DNA from: Subsaximicrobium wynnwilliamsii
Lineage (GTDB): Bacteria; Bacteroidota; Bacteroidia; Flavobacteriales; Flavobacteriaceae
DNA: 49,142 nucleotides
Direction: 5' to 3'
NCBI RefSeq assembly: GCF_007997225.1
Contig: NZ_VORM01000032.1
Location: 1 to 49,142 of the forward strand
Below the pieces are notes generated by a model that was given only the letters and a program-made list of their open reading frames with translations, was not told the origin of the DNA and did not search any database. Made by a program: the position numbers and the translations under genes. Of this stretch, positions 317 through 48,047 are shown piece by piece. How positions within the stretch are numbered: the stretch's first letter is position 1; every line of letters begins with the position of its first letter.

Positions 317-901
317 TTACAGTCTGAACACAGCTTGGGCAAAATACATCCAATGGTTGTTGTCAAATTGTTTGTCTGGGTGATTGAAAGCAAATTTTCC
401 AGTACCTTGAAATCTAATGCCGATGGTTCTATTACGATTTAACCAAAATAAAGCGCCAAAAGAGACATTGGCAGAGGTGTTCAATTCATCAATTGTAAAG
501 ATGCCTACGCCACCAGAAGCGTAAAGATCAACCCATTCTGCATCATATAAATAATCGGAAAAGTAAAATTTTAGGGAGGTATTGGTGCTAAAATAGAGTA
601 CGTCATCCTCGAGGAAACCGTTATCTAGAAATTCGCCTTTATCATAGCCGTTAAAGCTCACGTCTTGTTCTATGGAAAGATATTTGGTCCATCTGTGCTC
701 TATAGCGAGTGCCAAAGGGTTTTTTAATTTAAATTCATCCAATTTTTCAACTGGGTTTCTTGTACCAAGATTTCCTAATGCATTCACGCCAACACTTAAG
801 ATCCACTCACCTTGACTGTTTCTATACGATTGCTTGGTTTGTGATTGACCATAAGATAAAGTGCCAATTAGCACAGCAGCAATAAATAGTAATTTCTTCA
901 T
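317..901 (-). CDS. Outer-membrane beta-barrel protein, secreted
   Basis: 194 residues. The N-terminus MKKLLFIAAVLIGTLSYGQ is a clear signal peptide with cleavage expected after Gly-Gln around residue 19. The rest alternates polar and aromatic residues in strand-length runs (for example LSIEQDVSFNGYDKG and TIGIRFQGTGKFAF) and ends in VFRL, as usual for small Bacteroidota barrels. Function is unknown; a structural or porin-like role is only inferred. It starts 55 bases after the nucleotidyltransferase gene on the same strand. It could be the last gene of that operon, but a possible promoter element of its own lies at 916-923. The ATG at 899-901 is the only sensible start because it precedes the signal peptide directly. 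Confidence 0.75.
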   Translation of the reverse strand: MKKLLFIAAVLIGTLSYGQSQTKQSYRNSQGEWILSVGVNALGNLGTRNPVEKLDEFKLKNPLALAIEHRWTKYLSIEQDVSFNGYDKGEFLDNGFLEDDVLYFSTNTSLKFYFSDYLYDAEWVDLYASGGVGIFTIDELNTSANVSFGALFWLNRNRTIGIRFQGTGKFAFNHPDKQFDNNHWMYFAQAVFRL

Positions 902-915
902 ATCTTAAATTTGTT

Positions 916-923
916 CAAAAATA
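916..923 (-). promoter_or_regulatory. Possible -7 box TATTTTTG before the barrel gene
   Basis: Read on the minus strand, TATTTTTG fits the Bacteroidota TAnnTTTG element and lies 14 bases before the ATG. No convincing TTG element is seen 17-23 bases further upstream, so this is a weak call. The identical octamer precedes the peptide gene at 3397-3404. Confidence 0.3.
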
Positions 924-942
924 GCCAATTATGTTAAATTAT

Positions 943-982
943 AAAATAAAATCTTACTAACTTTTACTAAAGATTTTATTTT
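943..982 (-). other. AT-rich hairpin over the end of the nucleotidyltransferase gene
   Basis: AAAATAAAATCTT (943-955) pairs perfectly with AAGATTTTATTTT (970-982) around a 14-base loop that contains the stop codon at 957-959. The stem is 13 base pairs but almost all A/T, so it is a weak terminator or attenuator at best. It may separate expression of the barrel gene from the three genes upstream. Confidence 0.35.
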
Positions 983-2006
983 TTAGTATGTGTTTGCGAT
1001 AACTCGTATTCGTGATGAATAGTTTTAAGCGTCTTGATACGTCTAAAATAATCACTTTAACCCTATATTCGGCTACTTCTAAGGGTTTTCTATTGATTTT
1101 AAATTGATAAAACTGAGTGTGAAATCGATCCAACCAAGCATTTTCATGAAATCCAGTTTTCAGATTCCAAACTTGCAATAGGCTTAAATACCTAGAAATG
1201 TAAGGGTTGCTTTTGAATTCTTTAACATCACTAAAATCCTTGTTCTTCCAAAGCACTAAGCTGTCGTAGACGTTTTTGAAATTTAGACGGTTGAAATAAA
1301 AACTATCATCATTCAGCTGCGTCGTCAATATGTTGATCTGTCCAAGATGCTTTTTACTAGCGACGAAAGTACCATTTTCAAATCTTTTATCTTGTATTAT
1401 GGCGCTCAAGTCCAATAATTCTCGATGACCCGATATTAATACGTCTCGGTGTAATTCAATTGCCGCGAGACGCTCAGGATTCACTTGCCGGTCTAAATGT
1501 CTAAAACCCGTGTTTTCATAGTTGAAGCCAATCAATTGATCGTAGCCGTTATCGATTAAAAGCTGAAATGCAAAGTCGATGTCTTTCTCAGGTACCAAAA
1601 TGTCAAAATCGCCAATCATGCGTTCGCCAAGATCTTGGTAACAATTGGAAAGCAGCAATCCCATTCCCTTTATAAACGCATATTCAATCCCATTGCGCTC
1701 TAAAATGTTGGCGACAAGCTGGGCTTCGCTTATCAAGCCCTGATTCCGTGCCCTATTGATATTAGTGAGTTCCCTGAGGTAAGTGATCAGATCTTTTGGC
1801 AGCGCTTCTAAAAGCTGCTTCTGTTCTAATCTGCAATACACGGCTGTAAGAACAAGATGTCCACTGGCGATGCTTACCAGCTGATCCCAGTCAGTATCTT
1901 TAGCTTGCGTCAGCCTGAGTTTTAACTGACTTTCATGAGCATCAAAACGCAGGATGTCCACAATTAATTGCAGGGTGTCTTTATTGGATGTTGCGTTGGT
2001 AGTCAA
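957..2006 (-). CDS. Nucleotidyltransferase family 5 protein (NTP_transf_5 type)
   Basis: 349 residues. The core FIKGMGLLLSNCYQDLGERM (111-130) followed by GDFDILVPEKD (132-142) is the typical pattern of this family: Lys-Gly (113-114), an Arg (129) and the metal-binding pair Asp133 and Asp135. The C-terminal half is helical, basic and poorly conserved. Family members occur next to HPr-kinase-like genes in RiPP clusters; in the lasso peptide pseudomycoidin cluster such an enzyme glycosylates a phosphorylated peptide. Here it follows the kinase gene by 32 bases and is probably co-transcribed with the small peptide gene. The frame has no suitable ATG; TTG at 2004-2006 is the likely start. The substrate is unknown. 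Confidence 0.75.
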   Translation of the reverse strand: MTTNATSNKDTLQLIVDILRFDAHESQLKLRLTQAKDTDWDQLVSIASGHLVLTAVYCRLEQKQLLEALPKDLITYLRELTNINRARNQGLISEAQLVANILERNGIEYAFIKGMGLLLSNCYQDLGERMIGDFDILVPEKDIDFAFQLLIDNGYDQLIGFNYENTGFRHLDRQVNPERLAAIELHRDVLISGHRELLDLSAIIQDKRFENGTFVASKKHLGQINILTTQLNDDSFYFNRLNFKNVYDSLVLWKNKDFSDVKEFKSNPYISRYLSLLQVWNLKTGFHENAWLDRFHTQFYQFKINRKPLEVAEYRVKVIILDVSRRLKLFITNTSYRKHILKNKIFSKS

Positions 2007-2038
2007 GTTGTGGTTTTGAAGGACGAAGATACTAAAGT

Positions 2039-3193
2039 CTAATCTGCTGCTGCGGCATCGAACAAAGTTTTAAATGCGGAAATCGCAAAGTCGTTATCGG
2101 AATAATTCAGTTCGTAAAATCTGACCTGCTCCAGCCAGTCCAGAAATAATTTAGCGTGTTCTGGCTGTGGTGAGATCCAAGAATCTGGGATGAGCGTCGC
2201 TAGAATTTTTTCTGCGGAAGCCTTTTTTAAGTTGGAGTCGCCATCCTTACTGTACTTCACATATACAATGGTTTTGCAGGGTAAGGCTTTTACAGCGGAT
2301 GCATAATCCACTGCGGAAGGCAAGTACTTTACATTCGTTTGTTTTGCATCTTTGAAATGCGTTTCAAGCGTTTCGAAGTTTCTCACGGTTTTAGCCATCA
2401 TATCAAAAGCACCTGCCTTAATCGAAACCGCATTGGGATATCTGTATAACATCAAATCATCGGCGTACATGGGTGTGAAATCGTCTGCCAATAAATCCAT
2501 GCCATGAGCCGTGAGCAATGCTGAAAGCGTACTTTTTCCGTTTCCAGACTCGCCTACAAGCATTATGGCTTCCTGATCGTTGCAGATGGTGGAGGCGTGA
2601 AAACTAGCCAACCAATTGGAAGCGGTCTTATTGTGAATGTAATTGGTCAATTCTAAAGAAAACGCCCCTTGGATAAAATGATAGCTTATGGTATCATAGG
2701 CATAGGCCGGTGTCTTGTTCTTAAATAGGTATAGCAGTTTGTCTACTTGGAAGATATCCAAAATCATTCCGACAGCTTCCGAAGTATTGGAACTAAAATG
2801 TGCCAACTGCGGATGAAAAAGACCTTTGATCTTCTCCGAACCGTAATTGACTTGGACGCCCAAATTTCCGAAGTGGTAATGGATGGCGATGCTCTGTTCT
2901 GGCGGATTAATATCTTCAGCAATAGCTCTGTCAATTTTAGTTGTGGCATTGCTATTTGCAGCTTTAAGAAAAGCTTCCAATTCCTTGTGTAACTCTGCAG
3001 CCTCAGCCTGTTCAAAGCCAAGCTCCTCTTGAAGCGACCTCAAAAAATGGGCTGGCGTTTTGGCGTTTAAGAACCTGTTTATGAGTTCGTAATTTGCGGG
3101 AGACACTATGGTAAAATGATTAGAGCATTGAAACCAAAGTATAGTACTTTGGTCAATGCTCTTTATATGTTTCGGAGATAAATCCGTGTTCAA
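2039..3193 (-). CDS. HPr-kinase-like protein with PqqD/RRE-like N-terminus
   Basis: 384 residues. A Walker A loop GESGNGKST (214-222) and a following ADD (236-238) match the C-terminal kinase domain of HPr kinase/phosphorylase-like proteins, which phosphorylate serine on small proteins or peptides. Residues about 20-80 (FTIVSPANYELINRFLN, then two helices ending ELEAFLKA) resemble PqqD, the peptide-binding RiPP recognition element; this is judged by eye only. It starts 15 bases after the stop of a 55-residue peptide gene and precedes a family-5 nucleotidyltransferase, so the peptide is the obvious candidate substrate. The frame is closed by the peptide gene's own stop codon upstream and holds no ATG there, so TTG at 3191-3193 is the likely start. 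Confidence 0.7.
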   Translation of the reverse strand: MNTDLSPKHIKSIDQSTILWFQCSNHFTIVSPANYELINRFLNAKTPAHFLRSLQEELGFEQAEAAELHKELEAFLKAANSNATTKIDRAIAEDINPPEQSIAIHYHFGNLGVQVNYGSEKIKGLFHPQLAHFSSNTSEAVGMILDIFQVDKLLYLFKNKTPAYAYDTISYHFIQGAFSLELTNYIHNKTASNWLASFHASTICNDQEAIMLVGESGNGKSTLSALLTAHGMDLLADDFTPMYADDLMLYRYPNAVSIKAGAFDMMAKTVRNFETLETHFKDAKQTNVKYLPSAVDYASAVKALPCKTIVYVKYSKDGDSNLKKASAEKILATLIPDSWISPQPEHAKLFLDWLEQVRFYELNYSDNDFAISAFKTLFDAAAAD

Positions 3194-3208
3194 AATGCGA
3201 ATTAGTAA

Positions 3209-3376
3209 TTAACCAAAAGGATTTCCTCCTGGATCTGGAACACCTGGAGAAGCGGCATGTGCCTGGCTAGGGCTAAGAATTAAGAAAGTCCCTACAGCCG
3301 TAAGCGCAGCATATTTGCCCATCTTTTTCATGGCCTCCTTACGGGTTATTTGATCTTGTGTAGTTTTTATTTTCAT
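3209..3376 (-). CDS. Small secreted or membrane peptide, candidate modified-peptide precursor
   Basis: 55 codons plus TAA, starting at ATG 3374-3376. The N-terminus MKIKTTQDQITRKEAMKK is charged. Residues about 20-40 (KYAALTAVGTFLILSPSQAH) form a hydrophobic, export-like segment. An Ala-Ser dipeptide then leads into a Pro/Gly-rich tail, SPGVPDPGGNPFG. The layout is that of a signal or leader segment with a short 13-15-residue mature tail. From memory, short peptides of this shape recur beside HPr-kinase-like genes in Bacteroidota. The only hydroxyl residue in the tail is the Ser after the hydrophobic segment, a possible phosphorylation site for the neighbouring kinase; that is inference. It could also be a small membrane-anchored protein that is not modified. 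Confidence 0.65.
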   Translation of the reverse strand: MKIKTTQDQITRKEAMKKMGKYAALTAVGTFLILSPSQAHAASPGVPDPGGNPFG

Positions 3377-3396
3377 TGTTCATCAATATGTTGAGT

Positions 3397-3404
3397 CAAA
3401 AATA
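3397..3404 (-). promoter_or_regulatory. Possible -7 box TATTTTTG of the peptide operon
   Basis: TATTTTTG on the minus strand fits TAnnTTTG and lies 20 bases before the peptide ATG. A clear -33 TTG at 17-23 bases is not visible. It would drive the peptide, kinase and nucleotidyltransferase genes. Confidence 0.4.
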
Positions 3405-3454: not shown

Positions 3455-4222
3455 CTAATCAATTATTACTTTCATCGCGTTTTCTTGTTTTTGGTCTTTA
3501 ATTTTAATGATGTAGACACCTGCATTCATAGTTTGGAGGGACAATCTGTTTTCATTTTGATGTATGTCCAAAGCATATTTCGAAATAAGCCTTCCATTTA
3601 TGTCAAAAACGGTGCATACTGTTGCTGCTTTGAGTTGCCCTTTGATGATGAGCTCTTTAGTATTGTTGGCCATGATAATGCTCAGATCGGAAAATGAACG
3701 GTGGGTAGTGGCTAAATTTTCGCCCACAAAACGCAGATAGAATCTGCCAACTCCCATAAGGTCGCTACTTGGTGTCAACACATAATCAGTTTCCGTTAAA
3801 AGCGTCGAGGTGTTCGCAACAGTATCATCCAAATAAACGGCCACTGTTTCTGGGATGGAGGAGGTCTGGATGCTGAATCGAACTTCGACACCTAACTCCG
3901 CGTTCACGCCAAGCGGAATTGTGACATCGTTATAATCGGTCTCTCCAACCGCTTGAATGGTAAAAGGAATGCCTTCATTACTTTCTACCAATTGCGTATA
4001 AAGGGAAAACCCTGTAGTAGGACTTCCAAAAAATGCAGCATCATATCCAGGATCCAATCCTAAGCTTGAATATTCCGAAAAATAAATATCGGTAAGATAG
4101 TCTTGGGTTTCATTGCTTAGTTTAAGTTTGAAATTGGTAATCGCCGCGGCATCTTGTGCTGCATTTTGGGCAAAAAGTGAGGTCGTGATCAGTAGCAATA
4201 CGAAGTAAGTAATTTTTTTCAT
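3455..4222 (-). CDS. T9SS type A sorting domain protein, short form
   Basis: 255 residues. A signal peptide (MKKITYFVLLLITTSLFAQ, 1-19) is followed almost at once by the beta-sandwich module shared with the three larger proteins of this array, recognisable by TDIYFSEYSSLGLDPGYDAA and VTIPLGVNAELG. The C-terminal 75 residues (DINGRLISKYALD through GVYIIKIKDQ and MKVIID) form the T9SS type A sorting domain, which directs export across the outer membrane and surface attachment or release. Unlike its neighbours it has no N-terminal repeat region, so it is essentially the shared module alone. No function beyond surface exposure can be assigned. No terminator is visible before the peptide gene 78 bases downstream. 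Confidence 0.85.
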   Translation of the reverse strand: MKKITYFVLLLITTSLFAQNAAQDAAAITNFKLKLSNETQDYLTDIYFSEYSSLGLDPGYDAAFFGSPTTGFSLYTQLVESNEGIPFTIQAVGETDYNDVTIPLGVNAELGVEVRFSIQTSSIPETVAVYLDDTVANTSTLLTETDYVLTPSSDLMGVGRFYLRFVGENLATTHRSFSDLSIIMANNTKELIIKGQLKAATVCTVFDINGRLISKYALDIHQNENRLSLQTMNAGVYIIKIKDQKQENAMKVIID

Positions 4223-14089: not shown

Positions 14090-14760
14090 TCGTCTTTGGT
14101 TTTAAAATTTATTGGAGATTGAAGGAGATTAACGATTGACGATTAACGATTAACGATTTTTGATTTTTTGAAGTTTTGATTCTGCTTCAGTTTCAGATTC
14201 GATCTTGAGCTCATGTTCAAATTCAATTTCAAGTTCTCCCGATAGCTATCGGGATCATCTTCGTCTTCATCTTCATCTTCATCTTCAACACCCAATGTCG
14301 AACACCGAATGACGAAGTGTTAGATTCGTCTTCGGTTTTAAAATTTATTGGAGATTGAAGGAGATTAACGATTGACGATTAACGATTTTTGATTTTTGAA
14401 GTTTTGACTCTGCTTCTGTTCAAGATTCGATCCTGAGTTCAAATTCAATTTCAAATTCAAATTCAATTTCAATTTCAAGTTCAAGTTCTCCCGATAGCTA
14501 TCGGGATCATCTTCATCTTCATCTTCATCTTCGTCTTCGTCTTTCTTCCGCGTAGATCCGCGATATCTGCGGGCTAAACAAACAGCCGCCACTAAATATT
14601 TCCCGCAGATCACGCAGATCCTCGCAGACCTCTCTTCGTCTTCATCTTCCGTCTTCAAGTTCTCCCGATAGCTATCGGGATCATCTTCGTCTTCATCTTC
14701 ATCTTCATCTTCATCTTCATCTTCATCTTCAACCCCTCGTGACCGTCATTACAAACGCCG
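14090..14760. repeat. Simple-sequence and palindrome-rich noncoding block
   Basis: No credible gene lies in 13930-14895. The block carries long runs of CATCTT/CGTCTT hexamers and TTCAAATTCAA-type hexamers. It has two copies of a longer unit that starts with GGAGATTAACGATTGACGAT (about 14121 and 14361), and three copies of the perfect palindrome CCCGATAGCTATCGGG at 14238, 14490 and 14664. Minus-strand open frames here read as Glu/Asp and Asn/Leu runs and are artefacts of the repeats. Confidence 0.8.
14544..14634. repeat. Copy 1 of a 90-base inverted-repeat element
   Basis: It begins TCTTCCGCGTAGATCCGCG and contains ATCTGCGGG and, after a spacer, CCCGCAGAT. The two arms can form a stem extended by GATCCGCG with CGCAGATC. 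It is slightly diverged from the two copies at 15641 and 15844. The form is that of a REP-like or MITE-like noncoding element. Confidence 0.6.
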
Positions 14761-44053: not shown

Positions 44054-46000
44054 ATGGAAAAAAACACGATAAGTCATAAACTCATAAAAACCTTGATTCG
44101 CATTCGGAATGTTGAACAAACTTTTCTCGATTTATTCAGTCAAGGGCATCTAAATGGTACCGTTCATACTTGTATTGGTCAAGAACTGAGTGCGCTCGCT
44201 TTTGCTGGCCAATTAAAAAAAACAGATTTTGTCTTTTCAAATCACCGATGTCACGGACATTTTATCGCCTACACTAACGAATGGAAACCTTTAATGTTGG
44301 AATTATTAGGAAAAAAAGATGGTGTTTGTGGTGGCGTTGGAAGTAGCCAACACTTACAACTATATAACTTCTTTTCAAATGGGATCCAAGGGGGTATCAT
44401 GCCCATGGCGGCGGGTTTTGCTTTGGGGAATAAGTTGAAACAGAATGATGCTATTGGCGTGGTTTATATTGGTGATGGTACTTTGGGAGAAGGTGTTGTT
44501 TATGAAACATTGAACTTTATAAGCAAAAAGGAAATCCCAGTGATCGTAGTTTGCGAAAACAATAAATACGCACAATCCACTCCAATCGAATATAATCTTG
44601 CCGGCTCAATTGAGTTACGAGCGAAGGCTTTTGGCATCGAGTTTAGAAATTCATCCACATCGGGAGAAACCGCGAATATCATTGATGAGGCGAAGGCTTC
44701 CATTGATTGGGTAAGAGCCAATAAGAAGCCAATATTTCATTTGGTCGATACTTACCGGCTCAAAGCTCATTCAAAGGGTGATGACGATCGAGATCAATCT
44801 GAAATTGAAACTAACGCAAAAAATGATTTTTTAAATATTCTTGCGGAAAATGATCCAGAATATTTCAAAAAAGAAAATGATAAAATACAGGCTGAGATCG
44901 ATAAATTTATCGAAACGGCCTTAACGGAAGACGAGTTGTCTATTGAAGACTACAACTATGCTGAACAAGAAGAAAAGTACAGGGAAGATGTAGAATTTTC
45001 TCCCTACGAAACCAAAAAAGGGCGTTTAGTGCAAAAAATGAATGCGTCATTCAAAAAACTGTTGGAAGACAAAAAAGTTATTTTTATAGGTGAGGATATT
45101 ATGGATCCTTATGGCGGGGCGTTTAAAGTATCCAAAGGACTTAGCGATACGTTTCCAGAACAAGTGATTGGCACATCTATTTCTGAAGGATTGATTGCTG
45201 GCGTTTCCAATGGTTTGGCCCTAAATGGGTTTAAGCCTTTTGCCGAATTCATGTTTGGCGATTTTACGGCCTTGGCCTTTGATCAAATGATTAATCACGC
45301 TTCCAAGATCTATAATATGTATAACAAAAAGGTAACCTGCCCTGTGGTTTTTCGAACCCCTATGGGTGGTGGTCGTGGATACGGACCCACCCATAGCCAA
45401 AGTATAGAAAAACATTATATCGGGATGGATGCATTTGAGATTTGTGCCTCCAATAGGTATTTGGATCCTGATATTATATTGAATTATCTCTACGAGCGAA
45501 AACATCCGTCGCTGTTGATAGAGAATAAAGTGGATTATGCTAAAAACAGCACAATAAGCTTGCCCAATGGTTATGAGATGCTGCAGTCGATTGAAGCATT
45601 GCCTTCAATCCTAATAAGGCCAACTTCAGACCATGCAAAAACCACCATTATCACTTATGGAGGTTCTGCAGATGTTGTGATCAACAATATAGAAAATTAC
45701 TTTTATGAATACGATAATTTGGTGCAGGTGTTGCTTTTAACCAAGATCGATCCAATCCCAAAACGTTTATTAAAAACAGTTTTGCAAAACGCAAGTTCTG
45801 TTCTATTTGTTGAAGAAGGGAATTCTGGAGGTACCGTGGGCGATTATTTTATTTCCTATTTGGCTCAAAATTTTAACAATCTAAATTTAAAGGCAATCGC
45901 TTCAGAAAGAATAAGTATTCCAAGTGCAAAATCATTGGAAGATACAGTACTGATAAATAAAGCTAATATCTACAGTAACCTAAATGGCGTTGATGCATGA
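44054..46000 (+). CDS. Fused E1 alpha/beta subunits of a 2-oxoacid dehydrogenase
   Basis: 648 residues. Residues 1-250 form the alpha part with the thiamine-diphosphate motif GDGTLGEGV (140-148) to CENN (167-170) and KAHSKGDDDRDQ (237-248). Residues 320-648 form the beta part, with GEDIMDPYGGAFKV, the catalytic Glu378 in SISEG, FMFGDFTALAFDQ and TPMGGGRGYGPTHSQS. The fused arrangement occurs in pyruvate, acetoin and branched-chain type enzymes. It would decarboxylate a 2-oxoacid and pass the acyl group to a lipoyl arm. The next gene encodes exactly such a partner and overlaps by 4 bases. No E3 subunit is present; the housekeeping one would have to serve. Substrate unknown. Confidence 0.88.
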   Translation: MEKNTISHKLIKTLIRIRNVEQTFLDLFSQGHLNGTVHTCIGQELSALAFAGQLKKTDFVFSNHRCHGHFIAYTNEWKPLMLELLGKKDGVCGGVGSSQHLQLYNFFSNGIQGGIMPMAAGFALGNKLKQNDAIGVVYIGDGTLGEGVVYETLNFISKKEIPVIVVCENNKYAQSTPIEYNLAGSIELRAKAFGIEFRNSSTSGETANIIDEAKASIDWVRANKKPIFHLVDTYRLKAHSKGDDDRDQSEIETNAKNDFLNILAENDPEYFKKENDKIQAEIDKFIETALTEDELSIEDYNYAEQEEKYREDVEFSPYETKKGRLVQKMNASFKKLLEDKKVIFIGEDIMDPYGGAFKVSKGLSDTFPEQVIGTSISEGLIAGVSNGLALNGFKPFAEFMFGDFTALAFDQMINHASKIYNMYNKKVTCPVVFRTPMGGGRGYGPTHSQSIEKHYIGMDAFEICASNRYLDPDIILNYLYERKHPSLLIENKVDYAKNSTISLPNGYEMLQSIEALPSILIRPTSDHAKTTIITYGGSADVVINNIENYFYEYDNLVQVLLLTKIDPIPKRLLKTVLQNASSVLFVEEGNSGGTVGDYFISYLAQNFNNLNLKAIASERISIPSAKSLEDTVLINKANIYSNLNGVDA

Positions 46001-47313
46001 ATAAATTAATTGAAACAATAAAAACACAGGTTGATTCTGTAAATGATGACAGTGTAATTGTAACGCAGATTTTGGTTACAGATGGTCAGCAGGTTTTTGA
46101 GGATGATGTTTTGGCGGAAATTGAAACATCCAAGGCCCAATTGGAAATTATTTCGAGCAGTGAAGGATATATCAAAATTTTATGCCTAGTAGATCAAGAA
46201 GTCATGATTGGTGAGACGCTTTTTGAAATATTTGCTGAAGAGATCCCGGAAGACGAATTAAATATAATGAAAGTCTCTGTAAAAAATGCTGAAAGTGATT
46301 CCGTCGAATCAAACTCAGAAAGGCAAGTGGAGATTTTAGAATTTGAAACCCAGTTTTCTAAAAAGGCAAAAGCTCGTATTGAACGTGAAAATATAAATGT
46401 TGCGGATTTCAAATCGATGCAGTTTGTCACAATTAACGATATTGAAAATTTCCTAAACCCTAATACGAAACGTCAAAACAACAATCGACAATTTGAAATA
46501 GTACAAGTATCAAAGCAGAAAAGTGACAATCGCTCCAAGACTGTTGTCTTAGGGAAACAGAAACTCAATGAAATGAATTACTTGAGTTCTGTTAATTCAA
46601 GTGGTTTGGTTTCTCGGCTTAGCATTCCTATTGAAGCCAGTTTAAAGGCTATTGTAAAGTCCCAAAATTTTATCAGTTCTACACCATTGCCCGTTATTGT
46701 TTATGAGGTCTCTAGGTTGCTGACTAAATATCCCAATCTTAATTCCTATTTTGAAAGCAACAGCAAGATTGAACATCAAAGCATTAATGTTGGCGTGGCG
46801 TTAGATAACGGAACCAATGGTTTAAAAGTTGGGAGTATTTTAAAATGTGACGATAAAAACCTCCATGATATAGAGGAAAACATAACAGATTTATCATTAA
46901 AGTATAACAATAACAATCTAAGCTTAGAAGAAATTAGTGCCGCCACTTTTACTATAACCGATTTGTTCGCCACTGGTGTCTCAAATTTTCACCCATTGGT
47001 AAATTATAACAACGCAGCTATATTGGGTATTTGCGGATTGGTAAATAATGCATTCAATATAGAGCTTGCCTTTGATCATCGTATTTCTAACGGTTTGGAA
47101 GTCTCTAAGTTTTTAAACGATCTCAAAATGAGATTGGAAACTAGATTCAATCAAGGTCAGTATGATAAAAATTTAACAGCGTTAGAAGACATCGAATGTT
47201 ATAAATGTTTGAGAACCGCTGCCGACGATCTTAATGGGAAAATTTATTTTATAAAGGTTGCAAATTCTAAAGAGGAAGGTCAAATTTGTTCTAATTGTTT
47301 TAATGGGTTCTAA
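45997..47313 (+). CDS. E2-like lipoyl acyltransferase with zinc-ribbon-like tail
   Basis: 438 residues. An N-terminal lipoyl domain (about 15-80) has the lipoylation site ETSKA, Lys46. A peripheral-subunit-binding-like segment (about 117-152, FSKKAKARIERENINVADF) follows. The catalytic-type domain (about 205-390) is recognised by ISAATFTITDLFATGVSNFH and DHRISNG (360-366). The normal E2 motif ends Asp-Gly; here Asn365 replaces the catalytic Asp. A C-terminal tail adds two Cys pairs, CYKC (401-404) and CSNC (431-434), which look like a zinc ribbon and are not usual in E2 proteins. It is coupled to E1 upstream and to the transferase gene downstream. Confidence 0.85.
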   Translation: MNKLIETIKTQVDSVNDDSVIVTQILVTDGQQVFEDDVLAEIETSKAQLEIISSSEGYIKILCLVDQEVMIGETLFEIFAEEIPEDELNIMKVSVKNAESDSVESNSERQVEILEFETQFSKKAKARIERENINVADFKSMQFVTINDIENFLNPNTKRQNNNRQFEIVQVSKQKSDNRSKTVVLGKQKLNEMNYLSSVNSSGLVSRLSIPIEASLKAIVKSQNFISSTPLPVIVYEVSRLLTKYPNLNSYFESNSKIEHQSINVGVALDNGTNGLKVGSILKCDDKNLHDIEENITDLSLKYNNNNLSLEEISAATFTITDLFATGVSNFHPLVNYNNAAILGICGLVNNAFNIELAFDHRISNGLEVSKFLNDLKMRLETRFNQGQYDKNLTALEDIECYKCLRTAADDLNGKIYFIKVANSKEEGQICSNCFNGF

Positions 47314-48047
47314 TGGAAGAAAAAATCAAAAGCTTATATACCAAATTATCCAATCAGTCTATTGAGAATAGCGACAGTGTGATTTCTACCGATGTTTTTT
47401 CATCGGTATTATTAGACCGCTTTACTGCTGAATTATCTAAACTTGGCGTTACTTGGGATAAAGAACCAACGTCAATCAACATGCTTATTGGCAATGCAGC
47501 TCGTCCTGTAGTAGCTACAAGTGTTTCTATGGAGAACACTGTGAAAAAAGAAAATTCAAAAACTTTGGCTATTGGCACAGATATCCAAAAGCTCGATAAA
47601 TTTCCGAAGGTAAAAGATTTTTGGGAAGAACCTTTTTATACAGATACCTTTAGTGCAACTGAAATTGGCTATTGTTTGAAAAAATCAAATCCAATCGAGT
47701 CATTTGCCGGCATCTTCGCGGCTAAAGAGGCAGTGTTTAAGGCAACAGGTATAGCTCGGCAAGACGTTATTATAAATCATACAGATAAAGGCATGCCCGT
47801 GTGTGACTACGCGTCTATTTCTATTTCACATGATGGCGATTATGCGGTTGCGACAGCATTTATAGGTAATCAAACAATAGTTTCAGTAAGCGATGATGAA
47901 AATAGAAGTATTGAAACAATTAAACCAAGTGTCGCCAATATTCCCAAACAAACATCCCATTCGAATAGATTATTGTGGAGTTTATGCTTCATATTAATTG
48001 TAGGTTATATCATATACAAAGAGTTTTTAGAAGCGCTCATTTTTTAA
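47313..48047 (+). CDS. Membrane-anchored phosphopantetheinyl transferase with possible acyl-carrier domain
   Basis: 244 residues. Residues 85-190 match AcpS-type 4'-phosphopantetheinyl transferases: LAIGTDIQKL with Asp90, IFAAKEAVFKATG with Glu139, and ISISHDGDYAVATAFI. Residues 1-60 look like a short acyl carrier protein in helix pattern, with a Ser-Ser (30-31) before VLLDRF where the carrier serine would be; this is by eye and uncertain. Residues 220-236 form one hydrophobic helix that would anchor the protein in the inner membrane. The start codon overlaps the E2 stop by one base. It probably arms itself or an unseen carrier with phosphopantetheine. Confidence 0.75.
   Translation: MEEKIKSLYTKLSNQSIENSDSVISTDVFSSVLLDRFTAELSKLGVTWDKEPTSINMLIGNAARPVVATSVSMENTVKKENSKTLAIGTDIQKLDKFPKVKDFWEEPFYTDTFSATEIGYCLKKSNPIESFAGIFAAKEAVFKATGIARQDVIINHTDKGMPVCDYASISISHDGDYAVATAFIGNQTIVSVSDDENRSIETIKPSVANIPKQTSHSNRLLWSLCFILIVGYIIYKEFLEALIF

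Follow-up and report, generated by a model that had tools for sequence, protein, structure and literature searches.

Peptides modified by kinases of the HPr kinase (HprK) type and by accompanying nucleotidyltransferases are, to our knowledge, known only as ribosomally synthesized and post-translationally modified peptides (RiPPs). Among them are the linear polyphosphorylated peptides (LPP) of Bacillota described by Popov et al. (2026), whose kinase LppK phosphorylates Ser3 of the core; the available sections of that paper (PMC13381572) place LPP and paeninodins in Bacillota only and call the biological role unknown. In lasso peptides, according to the available part of PMC9266682, the kinases PadeK and PsmK and, for pseudomycoidin, the nucleotidyltransferase PsmN target a Ser in either precursor or product. 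In the type IX secretion system (T9SS) of Porphyromonas gingivalis, the C terminus of the cargo forms an amide bond with an aminoacyl (seryl) sugar, and the available text of PMC7468200 names no ribosomal peptide in this anchor. Here we analyse a 49,142-nucleotide stretch of Subsaximicrobium wynnwilliamsii ('the window'), which is a whole contig of the source genome (G000), so that sequence past its terminal barrel gene falls outside view. In order of transcription, its minus strand carries four T9SS cargo genes and then genes for a short precursor-like peptide, an HprK-type kinase, a nucleotidyltransferase and a barrel-like protein, with gaps of 78, 15, 32 and 55 bases between the last five. 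We consider it moderately probable that these genes represent a RiPP-like surface system of Flavobacteriaceae, in which a peptide modified by the kinase and the nucleotidyltransferase works with T9SS cargo; the two enzymes probably act in trans on peptides tied to T9SS surface proteins, rather than within a minimal lasso-like cluster.

Like LPP clusters, as far as the available text of PMC13381572 describes them, the locus encodes an HprK-like kinase and an NTP transferase with a small precursor that is conserved at its N terminus, varies at its C terminus and has a Ser early in the core; there is no cyclase, and polysaccharide loci lie nearby. Among 24 distinct kinase loci that we compared (a duplicate, L042, which contains L020, was dropped), a PF14907 nucleotidyltransferase adjoins the kinase in 22, the exceptions being L053, with another nucleotidyltransferase, and L056, near a contig end; in 18 of 37 peptide cases the kinase is the first or second gene after the peptide. 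The differences are several: LPP has a discrete RiPP recognition element (RRE), whereas the present kinase carries a fused domain that is possibly RRE-like; LPP has a dedicated SpI peptidase and an MsbA-like exporter, whereas on the strand of the operon the conserved neighbours include nothing that resembles either (no genome-wide search was made); and the LPP leader motif YxxPxVLxHQxIxFETxxS is absent from our peptide alignments, in which the leader instead resembles a signal peptide. The neighbours here are T9SS cargo genes, and a single kinase can be common to several scattered precursors. Because several defining LPP features fail, the present system is LPP-like in its working and not a member of LPP.

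With paeninodin and pseudomycoidin it shares the kinase and, in the latter case, a nucleotidyltransferase acting on Ser. The C-terminal Ser, the B1, B2 and C proteins and the macrolactam of those pathways (available text of PMC9266682) were not seen among the conserved genes here; the conserved neighbour clusters lack macrolactam cyclase C and B1/B2 proteins (no profile search for them was run), and we rejected a lasso peptide cluster on this ground. The system combines a known enzyme pair and its Ser with an unexpected T9SS context, and differs from LPP in leader, RRE arrangement, export and partners. We found no report of it in listings of open-licence PMC papers; the main text of two RRE papers (PMC12710340 and PMC7470986) lacks the terms kinase, nucleotidyltransferase, HPr, Bacteroid and Flavobact, and the available text of a T9SS shuttle paper (PMC12618676) mentions no such peptide.

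Co-occurrence of the peptide, the kinase and T9SS cargo

Kinase and peptide were sought in 149 genomes of the family and 395 of the phylum, G000 and G131 being in both samples. Within the family the kinase occurs in 15 genomes and the peptide in 15, with both in 14 (Fisher p 1.4e-17, uncorrected for relatedness). Only G048, 82% complete and with its kinase at a contig edge, has the kinase without the peptide, and only G136, 84% complete, has the peptide without the kinase. Five phylum genomes contain the peptide, and the same five contain a full-length kinase (292 bits or more). The kinase profile matches 39 phylum genomes, the best match below the full-length set reaching 37.8 bits; we set aside these weak HprK-like matches (34 of the 39, under 40 bits) as a different kind, some of them adjoining lasso-precursor-like open reading frames (ORFs). 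The genes need not be neighbours: G234 and G454 each carry six dispersed peptide genes and a single kinase gene that lies elsewhere with its nucleotidyltransferase, and in G123 two peptides are about 370 and 490 kb from the kinase gene. With peptides dispersed in this way, the kinase and nucleotidyltransferase could modify them only by acting in trans.

The peptides are also paired with T9SS cargo. The fetched loci contain 37 distinct peptide genes, of which 34 have visible upstream sequence and 3 abut contig edges; in 33 of the 34 the nearest upstream gene on the same strand is a T9SS cargo gene or an ORF bearing a cargo C-terminal domain (CTD), and this includes dispersed copies far from the kinase. 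The distance is within 100 bases in 25 of the 33, and a second peptide intervenes in two. CTDs were called with a profile built on the window's four cargo proteins, which resemble type A cargo in this domain and exceed the cut-off of TIGR04183 (the protein at 3455–4222) or PF18962 (the other three). Cargo at L095 and L101 was missed by that profile; both proteins have the shared module described below, and that of L095 also matches Por_Secre_tail below the threshold (E 9e-4). When six cargo proteins of other loci were compared with the Pfam CTD model, L047 and L093 were over its cut-off and L054, L095 and L096 below it, while L058 gave no match at E 0.01. Eight peptide-bearing genomes have 12 to 83 Por_Secre_tail matches each, roughly 0.5–2% of genes by our estimate, so that the pairing of cargo and peptide is not a matter of chance; its conservation suggests that the modified peptide acts with the cargo at the cell surface.

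The cargo proteins belong together. A shared C-terminal module is present in 29 of the 31 upstream same-strand proteins longer than 100 residues (L042 dropped; E 1.7e-127 to 7.9e-30), the exceptions being the proteins of L046 and L059; it spans about 460–550 residues including the CTD, and 221 in the short 3455–4222 protein. A model of its part before the CTD (257 positions, from sequences of G000, G004, G014, G033, G040, G069, G123 and G131) scores at least 140 bits in 16 of the 149 family genomes, 14 of which are among the 15 kinase genomes; eight of the 16 supplied model sequences and the other eight did not. In the fifteenth kinase genome, G067, the best match is 118 bits, to contig-end fragments. 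The next genome under the line reaches 127 bits with a more general paralogue, and some match to the module occurs in 100 of the 149. A functional domain was sought in the cargo proteins scanned, and Pfam gave only CTD, PATR, fn3, weak Pur_ac_phosph_N, PKD and DUF285 pieces.

These results recast a preliminary description of the locus, made from the window's letters, as a minimal peptide-modification cassette of four genes. The genes, their order and their spacing were as it said, the HPr-kinase-like and family-5 nucleotidyltransferase assignments stand, and a conserved short ORF beside homologous kinases, which it had proposed as its own check, is borne out by the near-constant co-occurrence of peptide and kinase. 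It contained no mention of the same-strand T9SS cargo genes upstream, the nearest 78 bases before the peptide, and the idea of a closed unit fails: peptides sit behind cargo genes, and six dispersed copies can share one kinase gene. Its overall reading is thus partly supported.

The peptide family and its candidate modifying enzymes

A protein search with the peptide returned 221 homologues at E ≤ 1e-3, of which the 120 listed form the basis of our residue counts. The family is conserved in Flavobacteriaceae, and its named members are hypothetical proteins, with one UniRef entry named Tat signal sequence. The consensus is TRKEAxxxMGKYAALTAxGTFxxLxPxxAxA-x followed by Ser and a variable Pro/Gly tail. 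In an alignment of 27 sequences (the window peptide, 12 of the listed proteins and 14 from loci), M1, R12, A15, K21, T26, A27, G29, L34, P36 and S43 are invariant. The position of Ser43 is Ser in 114 and Thr in one (P0095) of the 115 listed homologues that could be anchored, the remaining five, missed by the anchoring pattern, have Ser there by eye, and all 37 peptide genes of the fetched loci encode it (L042 dropped). Its flanks vary, the commonest residue occurring in 39 of 115 before it and 72 of 115 after it, and the tails run from PPDPGGNPFD to unrelated Gly/Asn-rich or Lys/Pro-rich stretches. The expectation of a conserved tail in the preliminary description therefore does not stand: likeness to GGNPFG is confined to near relatives, tails in distant relatives are unrelated, and what is kept is the leader and one Ser.

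Over a leader block of 33–37 codons (297 pairs among 37 rows, L042 included), mean synonymous divergence (pS) is 0.70 and mean non-synonymous divergence (pN) 0.15; synonymous change is close to saturated and the protein sequence is preserved, which indicates a gene under purifying selection. Together with the 221 homologues, this led us to reject a chance ORF. On these patterns the leader segment is a proposed kinase recognition site and export signal, and Ser43 a candidate phospho-acceptor. The leader lacks a twin-arginine motif, having RK instead of RR; TatC was found in 18 of 19 genomes.

Over its C-terminal half (residues 184–377), the kinase resembles HprK-related kinase A (TIGR04352 HprK_rel_A; E 3.7e-20), from which it differs in an extra N-terminal domain and in a score, 72.2 bits, far under the family cut-off of 200. 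Its TTG start is not singular, as the called ORFs of several homologues likewise start at TTG. Across 40 kinases, G214, S216, G217, G219–T222, H199, D237 and D238 are invariant; the P-loop, His199 and Asp237–Asp238 presumably have the catalytic roles that they have in HprK. With these motifs set in a predicted HprK fold, the protein is assigned to the HprK/PEPCK superfamily. In the structure model, the N-terminal domain has three strands followed by three helices, an order that fits RRE (PqqD) domains, and its hhalign comparison with Bacteroidota PqqD rows scored 20.9 (E 0.0011 as one comparison, probability 20.9%, 14% identity), whereas 100 column shuffles reached at most 16.0 and control blocks 13.8. 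The structural matches listed for the kinase model, which mostly span residues 86–384, include no PqqD or RRE chain. A discrete PqqD gene was not found, PF05402 having no match in G000 and no such gene lying among the conserved neighbours, although a very divergent RRE could escape this profile.

Other kinases and RREs came to light along the way. Two loci of other Bacteroidota, L081 and L086, have HprK-like kinases with lasso-precursor-like short ORFs (by eye), and L086 has a discrete PqqD-type RRE that matches TbiB1 (5v1u) at E 4.3e-11. At G290:C1:208656-209396 and G337:C1:2101182-2101922, sub-threshold PqqD and HprK-like matches fall in one 547-residue frame, a possible PqqD–kinase fusion. 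The kinase gene of G040 (L010/L016, G040:C1:3440232-3441360) is split over two reading frames.

A sequence search of the PDB with the nucleotidyltransferase profile found nothing. In L053 (G055), the enzyme directly downstream of the kinase (1270–2157) is a PF00483 nucleotidyl transferase (E 5.2e-10), as if swapped for NTP_transf_5. A homologue of the barrel gene stands beside only 14 of the 22 kinase–nucleotidyltransferase pairs, and we rejected it as a core part; the gene named as an outer-membrane barrel in the preliminary description is present, with a profile match below cut-off, and is optional. That description had also noted the lack of a cyclase, a protease and an ATP-binding cassette (ABC) transporter. 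No cyclase or ABC exporter occurs in the conserved gene set around the kinase loci; 'no protease' is valid for the operon only, because a metallopeptidase gene of family M90 (PF06167; E 3.8e-29 and 1.6e-37 in two copies scanned) lies near 9 of the 24 kinase loci, for example at L018:10920-11780. It is on the strand opposite the kinase every time, and for this reason and its limited occurrence we did not adopt it as a leader peptidase.

Proposed mechanism and alternatives

We propose that the kinase docks on the peptide's conserved leader, probably with the RRE-like domain at the kinase N terminus, and phosphorylates Ser43, two residues past the likely A-x-A cleavage site of the export signal; the NTP_transf_5 enzyme would add a nucleotide, a nucleotide-derived sugar or a sugar-phosphate to the phosphoserine. 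Phosphorylation of Ser43 followed by extension of the phosphate is the most likely course by analogy with LppK, PadeK and PsmK/PsmN. The modified peptide would leave the cytoplasm by its own signal (Sec or Tat-like, with the general signal peptidase), so that no dedicated leader peptidase or ABC exporter would be needed, and might then work with T9SS cargo of one subfamily in secretion, retention or anchoring, one kinase gene serving every peptide of a genome. In a more specific version, which we regard as doubtful, the peptide would be a ribosomally made anchor to which PorU joins the C terminus of the paired cargo: Ser43 would carry a phosphate-linked glycan (or lipid-glycan) built by the peptide kinase and the nucleotidyltransferase, signal peptidase would free an amine two residues from it, and the peptide would replace the seryl-sugar linker of P. 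gingivalis. Such peptides gain a concrete, testable biological context in an enzyme pair tied to T9SS surface proteins by gene order and co-occurrence, and the system may reveal an unrecognised step in cargo secretion or attachment in marine flavobacteria.

Several observations weigh against the proposal of a modified peptide working with T9SS cargo. L021 has peptide and kinase and no upstream cargo gene, and at L046 and L059 the CTD-bearing ORF before the peptide has just 77 and 44 residues, respectively, the next larger genes being unrelated (an Lcl_C protein and a tetrahydrofolate dehydrogenase). G121 and G066 (80% complete) have the module subfamily with neither kinase nor peptide. In G000, six proteins score at least 140 bits with the module model and the peptide occurs once; behind seven extra module genes examined in G000, G045 (a congener of the window's host), G069 and G097 no recognisable peptide was found; a strict rule of one peptide per cargo is thus rejected, and since some module cargo lack a peptide of their own, one peptide may serve several. 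Ser43 is not alone in recurring, as some tail positions are common too (Pro 92/115, Gly 93/115), and near relatives are over-represented among the homologues. The assignment of the kinase N terminus as an RRE is weak to moderate. According to the available text of PMC13381572, an S3T variant of LPP was not phosphorylated, and one homologue here, P0095, has Thr; deletion of lppN changed nothing in Bacillus subtilis, which leaves thin precedent for a second modification step.

The strongest alternative, unlikely in our estimate, is that the peptide is not a substrate at all but a small exported partner or assembly factor for T9SS cargo, the enzymes having some other target, for instance the cargo or a precursor of a glycan. 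It sits poorly with the near coincidence of kinase and peptide in genomes, with the retention of one Ser while the tail varies and with the possible RRE-like domain, and in two described families HprK-type kinases beside small precursors phosphorylate these.

Rather unlikely as well, and a little behind, is a stand-alone natural product, an LPP-like or lasso-like phosphorylated and glycosylated signal or antimicrobial beside which the T9SS genes would be incidental neighbours. The enzyme types do match those of LPP and pseudomycoidin clusters, the tail varies after a conserved leader, surface polysaccharide genes share the contig as they do around LPP loci, and the M90 gene occurs near some kinases. 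Incidental neighbours would not be expected, however, to precede 33 of 34 peptides, dispersed copies included, or to form a module subfamily whose distribution tracks the kinase; no exporter gene was seen in the conserved set, and the M90 gene never lies on the kinase strand. That the conserved segment is a signal peptide only, the ORF being left over from a cargo operon or serving as its leader ORF, is very improbable: the segment is short and hydrophobic with an A-x-A end, one homologue bears a Tat name and TatC is widespread, but signal peptides seldom retain so many fixed residues, the leader has RK rather than RR, and both purifying selection and near-perfect co-occurrence with a specific kinase speak against it.

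Feature coordinates and further observations

Features of the window, with positions counted from its first letter
Feature	Position	Strand	Basis
Precursor-like peptide, 55 residues	3209..3376	-	ATG start, C-terminal GGNPFG; leader-like segment, Ser43, Pro/Gly tail
Leader-like segment, residues 10–41, ITRKEAMKKMGKYAALTAVGTFLILSPSQAHA, A-x-A at end	3254..3349	-	Invariant columns; signal-peptide reading by eye
Ser43 codon, proposed phospho-acceptor	3248..3250	-	Near-invariant Ser in homologues
HprK/PEPCK-type kinase, 384 residues, TTG start, proposed peptide kinase	2039..3193	-	Profile and motifs
Kinase N-terminal domain, residues 9–79, possibly RRE (PqqD)-like	2957..3169	-	Structure model and hhalign
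Kinase P-loop GESGNGKST, residues 214–222	2528..2554	-	Invariance in 40 kinases
Kinase His199	2597..2599	-	Invariant in 40 kinases
Kinase Asp237–Asp238	2480..2485	-	Invariant in 40 kinases
NTP_transf_5 nucleotidyltransferase, 349 residues	957..2006	-	PF14907 E 7.5e-28; GDFDIL motif near 1602–1610
Small outer-membrane barrel-like protein, 194 residues, accessory	317..901	-	OMP_b-brl E 0.016, below cut-off
T9SS type A cargo next upstream of peptide, 255 residues, short module form and CTD	3455..4222	-	TIGR04183 E 9.9e-10, over cut-off; module 173.5 bits
T9SS cargo with shared C-terminal module, 952 residues	4526..7384	-	Por_Secre_tail E 6.9e-09, weak PATR; module 331.8 bits (in model)
T9SS cargo with shared C-terminal module, 1284 residues	8032..11886	-	Por_Secre_tail E 5.3e-11; module 314.0 bits (in model)
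T9SS cargo with shared C-terminal module, 581 residues	12018..13763	-	Por_Secre_tail E 1.3e-09; module 329.1 bits (in model)

The tiny upstream ORFs of two related loci (L046:9663-9896 and L059:8950-9084) resemble a signal peptide joined to a CTD end, and may be degraded genes or mini-cargo.

Adjoining the cargo–peptide operon and divergent from it, a surface-polysaccharide cluster occupies 16197–49097; judged by eye, it contains two UDP-N-acetylglucosamine 2-epimerase-like genes, a UDP-sugar dehydrogenase and epimerases, an ABC-2 export pair and many glycosyltransferases. Nucleotide-sugar genes also lie near several related loci (neighbour clusters c5 and c12). Within the polysaccharide cluster, at 44054–48047, is a set that is odd in that place: a fused E1-like thiamine-dependent dehydrogenase, an E2-like lipoyl/acyltransferase and a phosphopantetheinyl-transferase-like gene (again by eye). 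An Asp/Glu-rich low-complexity ORF at about 14365–14658 belongs to a small repeated set (c22) that is confined to the window among the compared loci.

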